Source: Betaproteobacteria bacterium (lineage in GTDB: Bacteria > Pseudomonadota > Gammaproteobacteria > Burkholderiales > Usitatibacteraceae). Taken from it: a stretch of 33,581 nt of DNA. Both the position numbers and the translations under genes were made by a program. The notes beneath the pieces were generated by a model that worked only from the letters and a program-made list of their open reading frames with translations, was not told where the DNA came from and did no database searches. The stretch is from the NCBI GenBank assembly GCA_019449455.1, contig JAGRPO010000222.1, positions 1-33,581 on the forward strand, read 5' to 3'. Shown here one piece after another: positions 6,792-15,292 of this stretch (positions within the stretch are counted from its first letter, which is position 1; each line of letters begins with the position of its first letter).

Positions 6792-6894
6792 GACGGTGAT
6801 CGCCGTCGACCAATTCGAAGTCGTGCGCCGCGCGTAGCCGGGCCGCGGCCGGATGGCACAATGCGGGAAATTGTTTCCGACCGCCGACTCGGCC

Positions 6895-7923
6895 ATGCCC
6901 CCTGAAACCCTTTACGACGCGCTCGGCGTCGCGCGTGACGCGCGGCACGCGGACATCGTTCGCGCCTACGATCGCCTCTGCGCGGAAATCCACAAGGACT
7001 CCTCGCCCCCCGACCCCCGGCGGGAGGCGCGCATCCGCGAAGCCTTCGAGGCGCTCTCCGACGAGGGAAGCCGTGCCGCGTACGACGAGATCCTCGCTTT
7101 CGACGCGGCGGCCTCCAAGCGCAAGCGGGTGGTTGCCATCGCCGGCATCGCGACCGCGGCCGCGGTCGTGGCGACCGGCGCGTGGCTTTACCTTCGTCGC
7201 GACTCGTCGCAGGAGAAGGCCGGGCTCGCCGTGATGGAGTTCCATGCCGAGGTCGTCAATTCGGTGGGCCGCGTGCAGAGCATCGACATTTCCGGGAAGG
7301 CGACTCCCACGGGACTGGCGTTCACCGTCGCGAAGGGATTCATGGCGACGACCTGCGAAGGGCTCTCCCCGGGATCGCAACTGGTGGTGACGATCGGCAC
7401 GCGCCCCGTGCCCGCGCGCATCGCGATGGCCGACGAGGCGCTGGGGCTGTGCAAGCTCGCGGTCGACGGCGCCGGAAGCTGGCCGCTGCGGGTGGGCAGC
7501 TCGCAGCCCCGGGCAGGCGACAAGGTGTACGCGGTGGACGTGAACACCACCGGGGATGCCGTGCTGGTCGAGGGCGCCGTGAAGCGGGTGACCGCCGTGG
7601 CGCCGGCGGTTTACGTCGAGGCCAGCGTACCGGTCGCCGCGGGGATGGGGGGCCGGCCGCTGCTCGACCGCCATGGCCGGGTCGTGGCGGTGGCGACTGC
7701 GCGGCAGCCTGGCGCTCCCGCGCGGCACGTGTTCCTGCCCCCGGGATGGGGTGCCGAATCCCCGCCGCCCGCTCCCGCTGCCGCGCCGTCTCCTGCCGAG
7801 CCTTCCCCATCGCAGCCGGATGAAGCCGCGCGGCCGGCCGCATCGAATGACCCGGTCCAGCGCCGCGCGGAAGAGATCGCCCGGAAGTTGCGCCCGCCGC
7901 CCACCGTGCCGGACGACCTGTAG
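6895..7923 (+). CDS. Membrane J-like protein with degenerate trypsin-like domain
   Basis: A 342-residue protein. Residues 1-65 read as a J-domain ([22 protein letters not shown], then [17 protein letters not shown]), but the HPD motif at 33-35 is HKD. A transmembrane helix spans about 79-99 after SKRKR, placing the rest outside the inner membrane if the J-part is cytoplasmic. Residues about 110-280 follow a trypsin/HtrA-like pattern without the triad. The histidine site reads TTCEG (Glu155 after Cys154), the aspartate site reads GLCKL, and the serine site reads GMGGRPLLD (Gly252). A Pro/Ala-rich linker and a basic C-terminal helix follow. It therefore looks like a non-catalytic sensor or scaffold rather than a chaperone or protease. 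The ATG at 6895 aligns with family J-domains. The stop touches the next start. Confidence 0.75.
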
Positions 7924-10862: not shown

Positions 10863-12638
10863 GTGACGGCGGTACCCGAAGCCCGGACTGACGCGTATTG
10901 CGTTGATTTCCTGAGGCAACTCGAGCCTCGGGTGTCGCAGCTCGATCGCCCTGAGCTCGCGGATGCGCTCGCGCCGCTGATCGCCCGGCTGAACGAGCCG
11001 ATCCCCGGACCGGAACGGGACGCGGTGACCGAGGCGGTGCTCGCCTTCTGCCGCCGGCTCTACGCCAACTCCCGCTCCGGCGACGCGCTGCCCCTGGCCC
11101 GCGGCCTGCTCTCTCAGGCTGCCCTGGCCGGCGACCCCGTGCTCGAACGCCGGGCTGCGGGCACTTGCGGGTTGCTGGCCGCCGACACGGCCGACATCGT
11201 TTCCGCGATCGCCTATCAGGTGCGGACGCTGGCGCTCGCGAATGCCGAGTGCAATCCCCGTTATCAGGGCGGGACCTGGAACAACATCGGCCTCGCGTTC
11301 TCGGTCGCCGGCAACGACGAGATGGCAGTCCGGTGCTATCGCAGGGCGCTGGCAATCGTCGAGGGCCTGCCGGGGCCGGTCAGGGTGCGGCATACGCTGT
11401 GCAGCAACCTCGCCAACGGCTTGTATCTGCTCGGGGAGACCGAGGAGGGGCTCAATTTCGGGCTGCGCGCGCTGCGGGAATCGGAGCCCACCTACGCGGA
11501 ACAGGACTTGCACGCCGCAATCCTCCTGCGTCGCAACCTCGTCTGGCTGCTCATCGCGACGGGTCGGGTTGCGGAGGCCAAGGCGCACGTGGCCGAAGTA
11601 TCGATCCTGGCGACGCAGGCAGCGACCCCGCGCGCCCGCATCGCGGCGGCGACAACGCGCGCGACCTACGAACTCGCCATGGGCCAGTCGGACATCGCCC
11701 TCACCCGGCTCGAGGAAGCGCTGGCGCAGGCACGCAGCGTTCCCGCGTCCTTGCGCGACACCTTGAGCTGCGTGATCCGCGCGGAGGAAGCGGCCGGCCA
11801 TGCCGAGCGCGCGCTCCTGCGCCTGCAGGAACTCTCCGACCACTTCTACCGTTTCGCCGTGGACCGCGCCCGCGACCACCTGGAGCTCTCGGCCCTGTGC
11901 GATTCGCCTTGCCGGGGCCTGGAAGCGATCCACGAGCAGGCCCGCGCGCGCCTCGTGTCGCACCTGAGTCGGCCGGACGAGCCGGAGGACTGGAAGGCGC
12001 TTCAGCGCCTGAGCGTCGCCGCGGTGCTGCGCATGGACAATACCGGCTGGCACGGACTGCGCGTGGGCGCGCTCACCAAGGCGCTGGCGCTCGCCTGCGG
12101 CCTCGCACCGTTGCAGGCGCTGGAGATCGGCCTCGCCGCGGAACTCCACGACATCGGCCTCTCCTCGGTTCCCGAAGCCATCCTCTCGAAGAAGGGGGAG
12201 CTCAACGACGCCGAGCGATCCCTGGTCGAGCGCCACACGGATGCCGGGGCCGAGATCCTGCGCGACGATGGCCACCCGCGCATCCTGATGGCGCGCGACA
12301 TCGCCAGGTACCACCACGCGCGCTGGGACGGCGCGGGATACCCGCCTCGCGTCGGCGGCAAGTTCATTCCGCCCGCCGCCCGCATGTGCGCCGTGGCGGA
12401 TGCGTACGACTCGATGGTCTGCGGCCTCGACGGCCATCGCGCGATGTCCATGGGCACCGCGCTCGTCGAGCTTCGGCGCGGGGCCGGAACGCAGTTCGAC
12501 CCGGAGCTCGTCGCCCGATTCGAGGCGATGATCCGCGACGAGACGGCAGATCTCGGCATCGATCCTTCCACCGCGGCGGGCCTGGAGAGTTTCCAGGAGC
12601 TCGTCGACTCCCTCCAAGAAGACAGGGGATTCCTCTGA
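10863..12638 (+). CDS. TPR-repeat protein with C-terminal HD-GYP domain
   Basis: A 591-residue cytoplasmic protein without signal or membrane segments. Residues about 70-370 are helical repeats of TPR type (for example TWNNIGLAFSVAGNDEMAVR followed by CYRRALAIVE), a fold that binds peptides or proteins. Residues about 390-570 form an HD-GYP domain, the cyclic-di-GMP phosphodiesterase type. Candidate metal ligands are His397, His429-Asp430, His458, His484-His485 and Asp513, and the GYP motif is at 492-494. The signature HDxGK reads HDIGL: the conserved Lys is Leu433, so activity may be altered. The start is a GTG at 10863 with only a distant AGGA, so it is uncertain. The stop shares one base with the next gene's ATG, so the TPR/HD-GYP protein and the LuxR-type regulator should be co-produced. 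Confidence 0.85.
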   Translation: MTAVPEARTDAYCVDFLRQLEPRVSQLDRPELADALAPLIARLNEPIPGPERDAVTEAVLAFCRRLYANSRSGDALPLARGLLSQAALAGDPVLERRAAGTCGLLAADTADIVSAIAYQVRTLALANAECNPRYQGGTWNNIGLAFSVAGNDEMAVRCYRRALAIVEGLPGPVRVRHTLCSNLANGLYLLGETEEGLNFGLRALRESEPTYAEQDLHAAILLRRNLVWLLIATGRVAEAKAHVAEVSILATQAATPRARIAAATTRATYELAMGQSDIALTRLEEALAQARSVPASLRDTLSCVIRAEEAAGHAERALLRLQELSDHFYRFAVDRARDHLELSALCDSPCRGLEAIHEQARARLVSHLSRPDEPEDWKALQRLSVAAVLRMDNTGWHGLRVGALTKALALACGLAPLQALEIGLAAELHDIGLSSVPEAILSKKGELNDAERSLVERHTDAGAEILRDDGHPRILMARDIARYHHARWDGAGYPPRVGGKFIPPAARMCAVADAYDSMVCGLDGHRAMSMGTALVELRRGAGTQFDPELVARFEAMIRDETADLGIDPSTAAGLESFQELVDSLQEDRGFL

Positions 12639-13609
12639 TGAAGACTATCGAAATCAACGACCGCGACCGGCAAATGCTGGAGCTGCTCTCCCAGGGCTCG
12701 TCCAACCGGTCGATCGCCGACAGCCTGGGCTATCGCGAAGGCACGATGCGGGTCTACCTGCACGGGCTCTACAAGAAGCTCGGCGTCGCCAACAAGACCA
12801 GCGCGGTGATCTGGTATTTCGAGCGCCTGAAGGCCGAGGGCGTGGCCGCGGGCGTCCTTCCCGATACCGGACCGGCGCCCGTGGAGGAGACGTTCGGCGA
12901 CATCGCCCTGCGGACGAACCTGCGCGCGGCCCTGGGGGCGATGAACGTGTTCCTGGGGGCGTACGGCCGGACGTGGGAAGTCGCGAACCGGCTGAAGGGC
13001 GTGGCCGCCGACCCCAAGGTCGACCGCCGCCGGCTCCAGTCGCGCCAGCTGTGGGAGGCCATGCTCGAGGGCGACTTCGCCTACGCCAAGAGGCTTTTCG
13101 ACGACGACCAGGTCGCCCGCCTCATCGTGGACTCGCCGCCGGACTGCGTGCTGCTCGGATGCATGCTGCGGGTCGGCGGCTACACGCGCGCCGCCGACCG
13201 CGTCATGGCGCAGCTCGCCCGGCGCCGCAAGGGACGCCCCGGCGTGTCGACCAAGGAGTTCGCCCTGGTCACCGCGCTTCGCGATGCCATGGATTCCAGC
13301 GGGGAGGGGGCCATGGCCGGCCTCTACCGGCTGGCGGTCGAGAGCTCGTCCAAGCCGTTCCCGCGGCACGCCGCGCAGGTGTGCCTGTACTGGGCGTACC
13401 TCGCGCACAAGGACCGCGACCGCGCCCGCCAGGCGGCCAACGCCGTCTGCGCCGAGGCGGAAGCCGTCCGGCAGCAACTTCACGCGATGGGAGAGCGGCC
13501 CCTTTACCGGGACGCGTCCATTCCGCAGCCCGGTCCGGTCGGCGCCAAGGCGCCGGCGTCCCGCAAGTCGAAGTCCGCGACCTCCCGCGCGGTTGCCGTG
13601 GTTTCCTAG
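12638..13609 (+). CDS. Regulator with N-terminal LuxR-type helix-turn-helix
   Basis: A 323-residue protein. Residues about 5-65 are a LuxR/GerE-type DNA-binding helix-turn-helix: INDRDRQMLELLSQGSSNRS, then IADSLGYREGTMRVYLHGLY and KKLGV. In most LuxR-family proteins this domain is C-terminal; here it is at the very N terminus. The remaining 250 residues are helical with a repeat-like feel (YTRAADRVMAQLARR, RHAAQVCLYWAYLAHKDRDR), possibly TPR-like, and end in a disordered Lys/Ser/Ala tail. The ATG at 12638 follows AGGGGA by 9 nt and overlaps the upstream TGA by one base. It probably acts with the HD-GYP protein and may control the divergent region at 13.9 kb. Target and ligand are unknown. Confidence 0.8.
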   Translation: MKTIEINDRDRQMLELLSQGSSNRSIADSLGYREGTMRVYLHGLYKKLGVANKTSAVIWYFERLKAEGVAAGVLPDTGPAPVEETFGDIALRTNLRAALGAMNVFLGAYGRTWEVANRLKGVAADPKVDRRRLQSRQLWEAMLEGDFAYAKRLFDDDQVARLIVDSPPDCVLLGCMLRVGGYTRAADRVMAQLARRRKGRPGVSTKEFALVTALRDAMDSSGEGAMAGLYRLAVESSSKPFPRHAAQVCLYWAYLAHKDRDRARQAANAVCAEAEAVRQQLHAMGERPLYRDASIPQPGPVGAKAPASRKSKSATSRAVAVVS

Positions 13610-13679: not shown

Positions 13680-13841
13680 TCACGGCCAGTCGGGAGTGAC
13701 GTCGCCGCCGGCCGCCAGCGCCAGCTCCCAGTCGGCAAGACGGCGAAACTCGACCGTCGGTTGCTCCCGTGCGTTCCTCGGGGCGAGGAGTTCCTCGGCC
13801 AACGTGTTCCCTTGCGCGCTTTCGATCCTGATGGTGTCCAT
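13680..13841 (-). CDS. 53-residue peptide with double-glycine-like segment (possible secreted or signal peptide precursor)
   Basis: The ATG at 13841 has AAAGGA 6 nt upstream, among the best ribosome sites in the window, which strongly supports translation. The 53-residue product starts MDTIRIESAQGNTLAEELL and is acidic and helix-prone. It ends with ADWELALAAGGDVTPDWP. The segment ELALAAGG resembles the double-glycine leader ends of bacteriocin and peptide-pheromone precursors, cut after GG by C39 peptidase transporters. Cleavage would release DVTPDWP. No C39 transporter or modifying enzyme is in the window, so this remains a resemblance. The in-frame ATG at 13940 would override the good ribosome site and pass through AT-rich promoter-like DNA, so it is rejected. 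The peptide gene is divergent from the 14.0 kb operon and convergent to the LuxR-type regulator. Confidence 0.6.
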   Translation of the reverse strand: MDTIRIESAQGNTLAEELLAPRNAREQPTVEFRRLADWELALAAGGDVTPDWP

Positions 13842-13922
13842 CTGGATTCCTTTCGTTTTTTGGGTTGGAGAAAGTCGGGATGCCGCGAGGGCCTTCCCGG
13901 CGACTAGTATTACAGATGTTAT

Positions 13923-14031: not shown

Positions 14032-14745
14032 ATGGACATTGGCGAGATCGTCTCCAGATTCTCGGAACCCCCGGAAGCGATCGCCCTCGGCATCTCCGCG
14101 CTGGAGGCGCTGGCCAACGAGGATCTTTCGCTCGCCGAGGCGGGCGCCATCGCCGTGCCGGACAACCTGCTGCGCCTCGCGACGCTCGTGCGCAAGGGCA
14201 GCGCCGGGCACCGCGACTTCCTGGTCCGGGTGATCCGGTATTTTCGCGGACGCGCCATGACGTTCCGGCACCAGGACGACGACGGCGACCATCGCCAGGT
14301 TCGCCGGATCATCGGCGCGCTGTGGGATCTGGAACGCGCCGGCCGCCTGCTGGTGATCCACGAGGCCATGGTCGACCCCCGCCTCGAGGCGGCCCTGGGG
14401 CCGCTCTATCCCGGCGCGACCTTCGAGATCGCCCTCAGTCCCTTGCGCAATTTCCTGCGCGACTATCTCGTGAGGGTCTATTCGTGGACGGAAGGAGCGG
14501 GCTGCGTCGCGGTCGAGCGGACCAGGAGGGTGTTCAGCGACCTGGGCCATCACGTCGCCACGCTCCAGTTCCCCGACCAGCTGGATCGCGACGCGGACCT
14601 CAAGGGCCGCTACGTGAGCCGCGCTTTCGCTTCCCGGAGCGGCCGGCGCGCCGGCTTCCTGGTCGGCGTGACGGCGGACACGGAGGGGGAGGCGGGGGCG
14701 GACGCCGGCGTGGCGGGCCTCGTCATCGCGTTCGCGGACCTTTGA
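14032..14745 (+). CDS. Unrecognised 237-residue protein
   Basis: I do not recognise this family. The 237-residue product has no signal peptide or membrane helix, so it is probably cytoplasmic. Residues 1-110 look all-helical (RFSEPPEAIALGISALEALA, LLRLATLVRKGSAGHRDFLV). Residues 110-190 are mixed (FEIALSPLRNFLRDYLVRVY), and the C-terminal part alternates hydrophobic strands with glycines (RRAGFLVGVTADTEGEAGAD, VAGLVIAFADL). The ATG at 14032 has only a weak GAAGA nearby. It sits about 75 nt after the strongest sigma-70-like promoter in the region and 13 nt before the PIN-like gene, so the two form a small operon divergent from the double-glycine peptide. G+C-rich codon use is like its neighbours, so recent foreign origin is not evident. 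Confidence 0.7.
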   Translation: MDIGEIVSRFSEPPEAIALGISALEALANEDLSLAEAGAIAVPDNLLRLATLVRKGSAGHRDFLVRVIRYFRGRAMTFRHQDDDGDHRQVRRIIGALWDLERAGRLLVIHEAMVDPRLEAALGPLYPGATFEIALSPLRNFLRDYLVRVYSWTEGAGCVAVERTRRVFSDLGHHVATLQFPDQLDRDADLKGRYVSRAFASRSGRRAGFLVGVTADTEGEAGADAGVAGLVIAFADL

Positions 14746-14758
14746 CGCGGGGCGCCCG

Positions 14759-15292
14759 TTGAAGGTGACGCTCGACCATCGCTGCATCGTCCAGCTGGCC
14801 GACCGCACGGAAGCCGGCGCCTGCCTCGGGAGACTGGTCTCGAGCGAGGCCATGCGCTGCTTCGTCGTGAACATCGGCGCCGCGCGGATGCGCCGTCGCG
14901 GGGCGAGGCCGCAGCACTACGGGCGCTTCGAGGAACTGCTGGCCGCCGCGGGCTGCGGGCACCTGCCGAGGCTCGACCCCATGTTCATCGTCGACCTCAC
15001 GTTCTGGGGAAAGTGCGTGTCCGCCGGCGATGACGACGTGCGGCTCGCGCGCGACATCGGCGAGGCTCTCTTCGGCGAAGCGCCCGGCGTGGACATACCG
15101 GACGACGGACTCGACTCGCCGGCCGGCCGGAAGTGGATCGACCAGCACTGCGACGTCCAGACGATGTGGACCCACATCCGCAGCCGCAACGACGTCTACG
15201 TCACCACCGAAGAGCGCTTCGTGAAGGAGTCCCGGCGTCCGAGGCTGAGCGCCCTCGGTGTCGGACGAATCTGCCTGCCGGGGGAGGTCTGA
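14759..15292 (+). CDS. PIN-like domain protein
   Basis: A 177-residue protein with the layout of PIN-fold proteins, many of which are metal-dependent RNases. The first strand MKVTLDHRCIVQL places Asp6 where the first PIN acidic residue lies. The C-terminal part THIRSRNDVYVTTEERFVKE places Asp145 and Glu151/Glu152 at the last acidic positions, where classical PIN domains have Asp; the final segment GVGRICLPGE is also typical. The match is by pattern only, so catalytic activity is uncertain. The TTG at 14759 gives the first strand intact; a GTG at 14765 is the alternative. It begins 13 nt after the orphan gene and likely shares its transcript. A toxin-antitoxin role is possible in principle, but neither size nor order is typical. 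Confidence 0.55.
   Translation: MKVTLDHRCIVQLADRTEAGACLGRLVSSEAMRCFVVNIGAARMRRRGARPQHYGRFEELLAAAGCGHLPRLDPMFIVDLTFWGKCVSAGDDDVRLARDIGEALFGEAPGVDIPDDGLDSPAGRKWIDQHCDVQTMWTHIRSRNDVYVTTEERFVKESRRPRLSALGVGRICLPGEV

Follow-up and report, generated by a model that had tools for sequence, protein, structure and literature searches.

A short double-glycine peptide linked to a TPR-HD-GYP protein: a candidate peptide signalling system in Burkholderiales

In the window, the 33.6-kb stretch of betaproteobacterial DNA that was analysed as a whole, a tiny gene appears to make a secreted message of seven amino acids. The frame of this gene, its leader, the double glycine (GG) and the short core are conserved, and the gene is co-conserved with two others that code for a TPR-HD-GYP protein (TPR-HD) and a LuxR-type regulator; TPR-HD genes and short GG peptide genes are also linked elsewhere, and the TPR part has a Rap-like predicted fold. 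We favour, with modest confidence, the interpretation that an exported peptide signal is read by the TPR-HD-GYP protein as its receptor and that the LuxR-type partner acts on the peptide promoter. This hints at communication by peptides in bacteria known mainly for signals of another nature. The features are:

10863..12638, plus strand: TPR and HD-GYP protein, 591 aa, candidate peptide receptor (Pfam, motifs, model, fold comparison, link to the peptide)
12638..13609, plus strand: LuxR/GerE-type HTH regulator, 323 aa (Pfam PF00196), whose C-terminal part is helical, convergent with the peptide gene
13680..13841, minus strand: gene for a 53-aa precursor peptide with a double-glycine-type leader (translation, homologues, chance control)
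13683..13703, minus strand: predicted mature heptapeptide DVTPDWP, cleavage anchored on L-12/E-8/L-7/GG
13704..13739, minus strand: leader end LADWELALAAGG with L(-12), E(-8), L(-7), A(-4), G(-2) and G(-1) (sequence, conservation and the consensus in excerpts of PMC6363468)
13842..13853, minus strand: ribosome binding region AAAGGAATCCAG, near-identical in several relatives of the same genus
13906..13922, minus strand: conserved promoter element ATAACATCTGTAATACT, candidate regulator site, overlapping the presumed -10

The 53-codon reading frame described in the earlier note, which gave no strand, is real and lies on the minus strand: 13680-13841 translates into MDTIRIESAQGNTLAEELLAPRNAREQPTVEFRRLADWELALAAGGDVTPDWP* (53 aa), ending in ELALAAGG and then DVTPDWP, as that note had read it. 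Its good ribosome site is confirmed as AAAGGA, 12 to 7 bases ahead of the ATG. According to excerpts of PMC6363468, PCATs recognise L(-12)-x3-E(-8)-L(-7) before a double glycine and take up positions -4, -7 and -12 in hydrophobic pockets; the window peptide has L(-12)-x3-E(-8)-L(-7) and GG at -2/-1. On reading of the sequence no hydrophobic signal stretch was found in the peptide, the double-glycine leader standing in its place, and neither Pfam nor NCBIfam gave a match at E 10. A strict search for a start with a ribosome site, L-x3-[EQ]-[LMIVF]..GG and a tail of 3-20 aa returned exactly one ORF from the 33.6-kb window, the peptide gene, and 0 matches from 2.0 Mb of Markov-shuffled window. From the sequence, a C39 peptidase is predicted to cleave the precursor after GG.

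Loss of the frame in relatives had been set beforehand as refuting, but the frame is conserved: the peptide was found in six of the seven genomes of the same genus and in further members of the family. Homologues devoid of GG had been named as a second check; M1, L35, the two glycines and W52 are invariant in an alignment of 11 homologues, and GG is present at 16 of 17 regulator loci. The W is kept in 15 of the 16 cassette loci (the exception is G008). Cores in the cassettes, anchored on L-12/E-8/L-7, have 6-8 residues, with longer ones of 11 residues in G001 and G007 and of 12 in one of the two G012 copies. Synonymous changes gave a mixed picture, with dN below dS in four of five peptide pairs and above it in one, judged not decisive at 53 codons; the G001/G007 pair (dN 0.118, dS 0.079) speaks against our interpretation. 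Because dN/dS is not uniformly low, the case rests on motif, ribosome site and neighbourhood.

The six named matches to the peptide are betaproteobacterial or so placed; five are metagenome-assembled genomes and the sixth is the complete genome of Betaproteobacteria bacterium GR16-43 (CP019169), which has both the cassette and an exporter array, with DSTPNW, GGDIHWG and CGDVIWG as predicted cores. A metagenome-assembled genome labelled Lysobacter sp. (L087, JAMPXV010000025.1) carries an otherwise betaproteobacterial cassette, and its label may be wrong. Among 398 genomes of the phylum, the peptide profile matched only the window's own at E 0.001. A profile search of viral contigs gave no confirmed relative that would point to a mobile origin. 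Plasmid origin was rejected: none of 38 records extended over 80% of the LuxR protein, and those listed match the HTH part only.

The peptide gene converges on the LuxR-HTH gene (12638-13609), as the earlier note had seen, and diverges from its unknown operon, two genes without Pfam match at E 0.1 (14032-14745 and 14759-15292). These two are co-directional, and at E 1e-3 the loci of relatives used for comparison gave no match to them. The regulator has a GerE helix-turn-helix (PF00196, E 3.7e-11, and PDB profile matches); its C-terminal part was modelled with a pLDDT of 76 and had no strong fold match beyond the HTH. The stop codon of the TPR-HD-GYP gene overlaps the LuxR start codon by one base.

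In 28 genomes of the family, 17 strong LuxR homologues (E below 1e-50) were found, five weaker matches (E 2e-36 to 8e-7) being left out of this count. At 16 of the 17 strong loci, all from one Burkholderiales family, a short GG ORF lies on the 3' side of the LuxR gene, 15 times convergent and once (G024) on the same strand. The remaining locus, G015:C68, had no GG ORF in the 447 bases before the contig end; a GG match on the other side of its LuxR gene (L125, 38 aa, TTG start) was judged a chance hit. None was found at the five weaker loci, including the paralogue G015:C60 (E 2e-36). A TPR-HD gene adjoins 16 of the 17 strong LuxR genes, and at the 17th (G003) the contig ends inside LuxR. Eight window proteins were checked against the loci of nine relatives, and TPR-HD and LuxR alone accompanied the peptide throughout, the G003 contig end excepted; the acyl-CoA dehydrogenase, gamma-glutamyltransferase and DUF808 genes of the window stand beside the cassette in some relatives only. 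At E 1e-15 LuxR matched 8 of 399 genomes of the order, all of the window's family and none outside it. At G008:C1:2794713-2797470 the TPR-HD match is split in two, the LuxR match is interrupted by a stop and a divergent peptide lies alongside, which possibly marks a decaying cassette. The window also codes, at 6853-7923, for a protein in which a trypsin-like peptidase domain comes after a DnaJ domain.

Upstream regions of the cassettes share a TTAACANNTGNAATACT-like sequence at the presumed -10, which in G010 has six-base inverted arms (TTAACA-AA-TGTTAA). A matrix built from 13 of 16 sites scored 18.8 or more at 12 of the 14 cassette stretches scanned, 11 of these 12 being training sites and G021 not; the stretches of G018 and G024 fail it. 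Since the best score outside cassettes is 18.6 (L182), the weakest cassette site, that of G010, is not separated from background. With one mismatch allowed, the element pattern had nine matches in 28 genomes, eight at cassettes and one at G011:C71, and a reversed control pattern had 15, none of them in the eight same-genus genomes that include the window's. A wide regulon was rejected on this distribution, and the element reads as local to the cassettes. Against our interpretation, the one-mismatch pattern fits just 8 of the 16 cassettes. We infer that the LuxR-type protein binds the element, and we regard the identity of the binding protein and the sign of its effect as presumptive in the same way.

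The earlier note found no exporter in the window, which is true for C39 exporters, and proposed to look for C39-peptidase transporters elsewhere in the genome. The window's genome has one C39 match, an HlyD and C39 ABC pair on a 5.5-kb contig (G000:C72). The customary, not defining, linkage of transporter and precursor is absent at the window locus; sister peptides are linked to their transporters. At least one C39 match was found in 27 of the 28 family genomes, including all 17 with the LuxR gene. Sorted by identity to the G000:C72 transporter, the family's transporters form groups at about 78-90%, 57%, 45-50% and 30%, besides copies that have diverged further. Short GG peptides, often in tandem, accompany the 45-50% group at 11 of 15 longer stretches and are found weakly by the cassette-peptide profile (E from 3.5e-6 upward). 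The double-glycine reading of the earlier note, backed by the L-12/E-8/L-7 consensus, is strengthened by these sister peptides, since they have the same type of leader and adjoin C39-peptidase transporters.

Besides the missing C39 exporter at the window locus, two observations speak against our interpretation. The 78-90% group, the only one seen in the window's genome, has GG peptides of about 60 aa nearby in 3 of 11 stretches and the short type in 0 of 11; the G000:C72 exporter is thus no more than a candidate transporter of DVTPDWP. In G003 the peptide is present together with an exporter of the most distant type only. The 30% group has GG peptides with TVTAKR-like repeats alongside in 7 of 10 stretches. 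The most distant C39 group (tandem ABC genes) adjoins GG peptides such as GELSDQQLDNVSGGQ..., with KLEKITVTAKRE-like units repeated in the core (L152:2964 (+), L155:2557 (+), L157:11437 (-); also L150, L151, L153 and L154). The GG peptides of about 60 aa near the exporter group kept by the window's genome form a second family, and most of them share a YENLVDFTSHVI-like end (L168:9586 (-), L169:3328 and 4434 (+), L176:4337 (+)).

A locus without exporter could also be that of a micropeptide that stays in the cell and inhibits LuxR or TPR-HD by feedback binding, GG being structural; the peptide promoter, the only matrix match in the window, would suit this as well. We consider it improbable: the positions contacted by C39 are kept while the N-terminal part drifts, and the sister peptides adjoin C39 exporters.

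The link between TPR-HD and short peptides extends beyond the cassettes. A TPR-HD query alone returned the cassettes and, in addition, paralogues at short-peptide arrays; the paralogous genes flank tandem short-GG arrays beside HlyD and C39 exporters, also in a second family. In the regions examined, which were chosen by peptide, C39 or TPR-HD matches and are not a random sample, a short GG ORF lies within 3.5 kb of 35 of the 45 TPR-HD genes and is missing near the other 10. Neighbouring TPR-HD genes share arrays, so that the 35 genes correspond to 30 distinct peptide loci. Shuffles of comparable sequence gave 2 GG-ORF matches in 1.04 Mb; 3 of the 12 stretches fetched on TPR-HD matches alone had a GG ORF by that gene. 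A search of the order with the TPR part led to G403, which belongs to another family and has HlyD, a C39 exporter with 65% identity to the G012 one and three precursors with the common core QAVMVFL; a peptide/TPR-HD pair in a third family (G220) has the core EGLFNFQ.

Nine tandem arrays of two to six copies each were compared. Mean identity over aligned positions was 0.91 in the core, 0.73 in the last 14 leader residues and 0.38 in the N-terminal part; over the longer sequence it was 0.84 in the core and 0.37 in the N-terminal part. The core exceeded the N-terminal part in all nine arrays, narrowly in the G012 exporter array and, by the longer-sequence count, in the G012 cassette. A core of 10 residues occurs in one array.

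Tandem precursors with related cores at exporter loci would also suit a secreted antimicrobial or modified peptide (bacteriocin or RiPP), in which case LuxR and TPR-HD would simply be regulators of the ordinary sort; excerpts of PMC6363468 describe double-glycine leaders as typical of such precursors. The family libraries gave sub-threshold matches only for ten related or sister peptides: a G010 sister peptide matched the CTB bacteriocin family (E 0.037) and the G001 peptide Mersacidin (0.19), both short of the cut-off. What speaks against a signal is the match of one sister peptide to the bacteriocin family NF038167, which at 14.2 bits is below the cut-off of 32. Cys is only scattered in the cores, and TPR-HD and LuxR, the constant partners, are neither modification nor immunity proteins, which makes this explanation unlikely. 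The earlier note had left the choice between a signal and a bacteriocin; the signal fits better, given cores of mostly 6-8 residues and, as invariable companions, a regulator together with a TPR receptor-like protein.

The candidate receptor has TPRs by Pfam and was predicted to have a superhelical TPR part. The model had a mean pLDDT of 71, with a good TPR part (77-95 over the block of residues 11-310) and a poor HD part. In a fold alignment that took in 963 of Foldseek's 1000 best chains, the top match was 8rsv, a peptide-bound Rap (Z 25.1, 297 aligned, 4.0 A), and RapJ 4gyo (24.1), RapF 4i9c (23.2), NprR 5dbk (21.4), PlcR 3u3w (18.7) and AimR 5y24 (18.6) were also found. Rap or NprR took 10 of the first 13 rows and APPBP2 (24.9, 24.8) and MalT (23.3) the rest. 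Against our interpretation, Foldseek's own order had LGN first and RapJ at rank 39. TPR superhelices are alike, APPBP2 and MalT score as high, and a shared fold does not show peptide binding.

The HD, HH and GYP motifs are present as H429 D430, H484 H485 and G492 Y493 P494, invariant in 6 sequences, and the HD-GYP part matched PDB 4mcw in a profile search (E 1.4e-31). From its sequence, the domain is probably of the cyclic-di-GMP phosphodiesterase type and may be active as such. The residue after HDxG is usually Lys in HD-GYP proteins; in the window protein it is Leu, which speaks against our interpretation.

A cyclic-di-GMP connection could exist even if the exported signal were detected by an unlinked sensor in the periplasm or on the cell surface, with the role of TPR-HD and LuxR confined to its production, for example as a c-di-GMP-dependent regulator. 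The best PDB match of the LuxR profile is VpsT, one entry title giving it as bound to c-di-GMP; the element lies at the peptide promoter; and the receptor interpretation additionally requires that a Gram-negative cell take up a heptapeptide. A comparison of 20 exporter or TPR-HD stretches revealed no LuxR homologue, so the link of TPR-HD and peptide holds without LuxR at exporter loci, and the modelled TPR fold resembles peptide-bound pheromone receptors. Such sensing seems to us quite unlikely.

In the receptor interpretation, the ORF would encode a precursor from which a short peptide signal is made and secreted. Having recognised L(-12)/E(-8)/L(-7), a C39-peptidase ABC exporter with its HlyD partner would cut after GG and export DVTPDWP, which would return to the cytoplasm and bind the co-conserved TPR-HD-GYP protein at its TPR superhelix. 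Binding may alter the HD-GYP output, presumably enzymatic, and/or contact with the LuxR-type protein of the same operon, which would then act at the TTAACANNTGNAATACT-like element in the peptide promoter. It is tempting to speculate further, and we do so tentatively, that Burkholderiales have quorum sensing by peptides and intracellular receptors, with C39-exported messages, TPR-HD-GYP receptors coupled to cyclic di-GMP, precursors in tandem and, in the branch to which the window belongs, a LuxR-type partner that acts on one promoter. If true, a genetically encoded message, legible in the genome sequence and linked to a receptor-like protein with a second-messenger domain, would make peptide communication in Burkholderiales directly testable with synthetic peptides. 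Among the matches listed in the open-licence PubMed Central literature, judged by titles and abstract openings, this combination was not found described.

Its parts resemble known systems. The receptor candidate shares the HD, HH and GYP motifs with HD-GYP cyclic-di-GMP phosphodiesterases (PDB 4mcw, 4r8z) but is fused to an N-terminal TPR superhelix and has Leu after HDxG. The peptide is like PCAT-exported double-glycine peptides in L(-12), E(-8), L(-7) and GG and in sister genes beside C39 transporters; it differs in the very short core, the repeated pairing with TPR-HD-GYP and an exporter that is not linked in the window. The pneumococcal rtg locus is, in excerpts of PMC7018657, a PCAT locus under the control of an Rgg system. 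GG peptides, PCAT and an RRNPP-type regulator come together in it, as similar parts do here. In rtg the Rgg pheromone and the GG cargo are reportedly separate peptides, whereas one short GG peptide would itself be the message in the window system.

In logic the proposed system parallels RRNPP quorum sensing (Rap, Rgg, NprR, PlcR, PrgX and also AimR; Firmicutes and their phages). Excerpts of PMC10075063 give Sec export of the propeptide, with PptAB for SHP and PrgQ, a receptor of 250-500 aa, a propeptide of 10-100 aa, a TPR receptor that binds the peptide, and directly adjacent genes; they describe peptides as the signals of Firmicutes and enzyme-made small molecules as typical of Proteobacteria. 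As in RRNPP, the propeptide is small (46-58 aa at the 16 loci, within that range), its last residues are the presumed message, and its gene lies near that of a TPR receptor-like protein whose predicted TPR fold is similar to that of peptide-bound Rap; the two genes are neighbours at exporter loci and are separated by the LuxR gene in the window. Unlike RRNPP, the host is Gram-negative, the leader is of the double-glycine (C39) type instead of Sec or PptAB, and the receptor candidate has 591 aa with an HD-GYP domain, the LuxR-type regulator being separate. Since leader and receptor length depart from RRNPP in this way, we do not file the window system there. If the interpretation is true, RRNPP-like logic operates in Gram-negative bacteria with another export route and another output.
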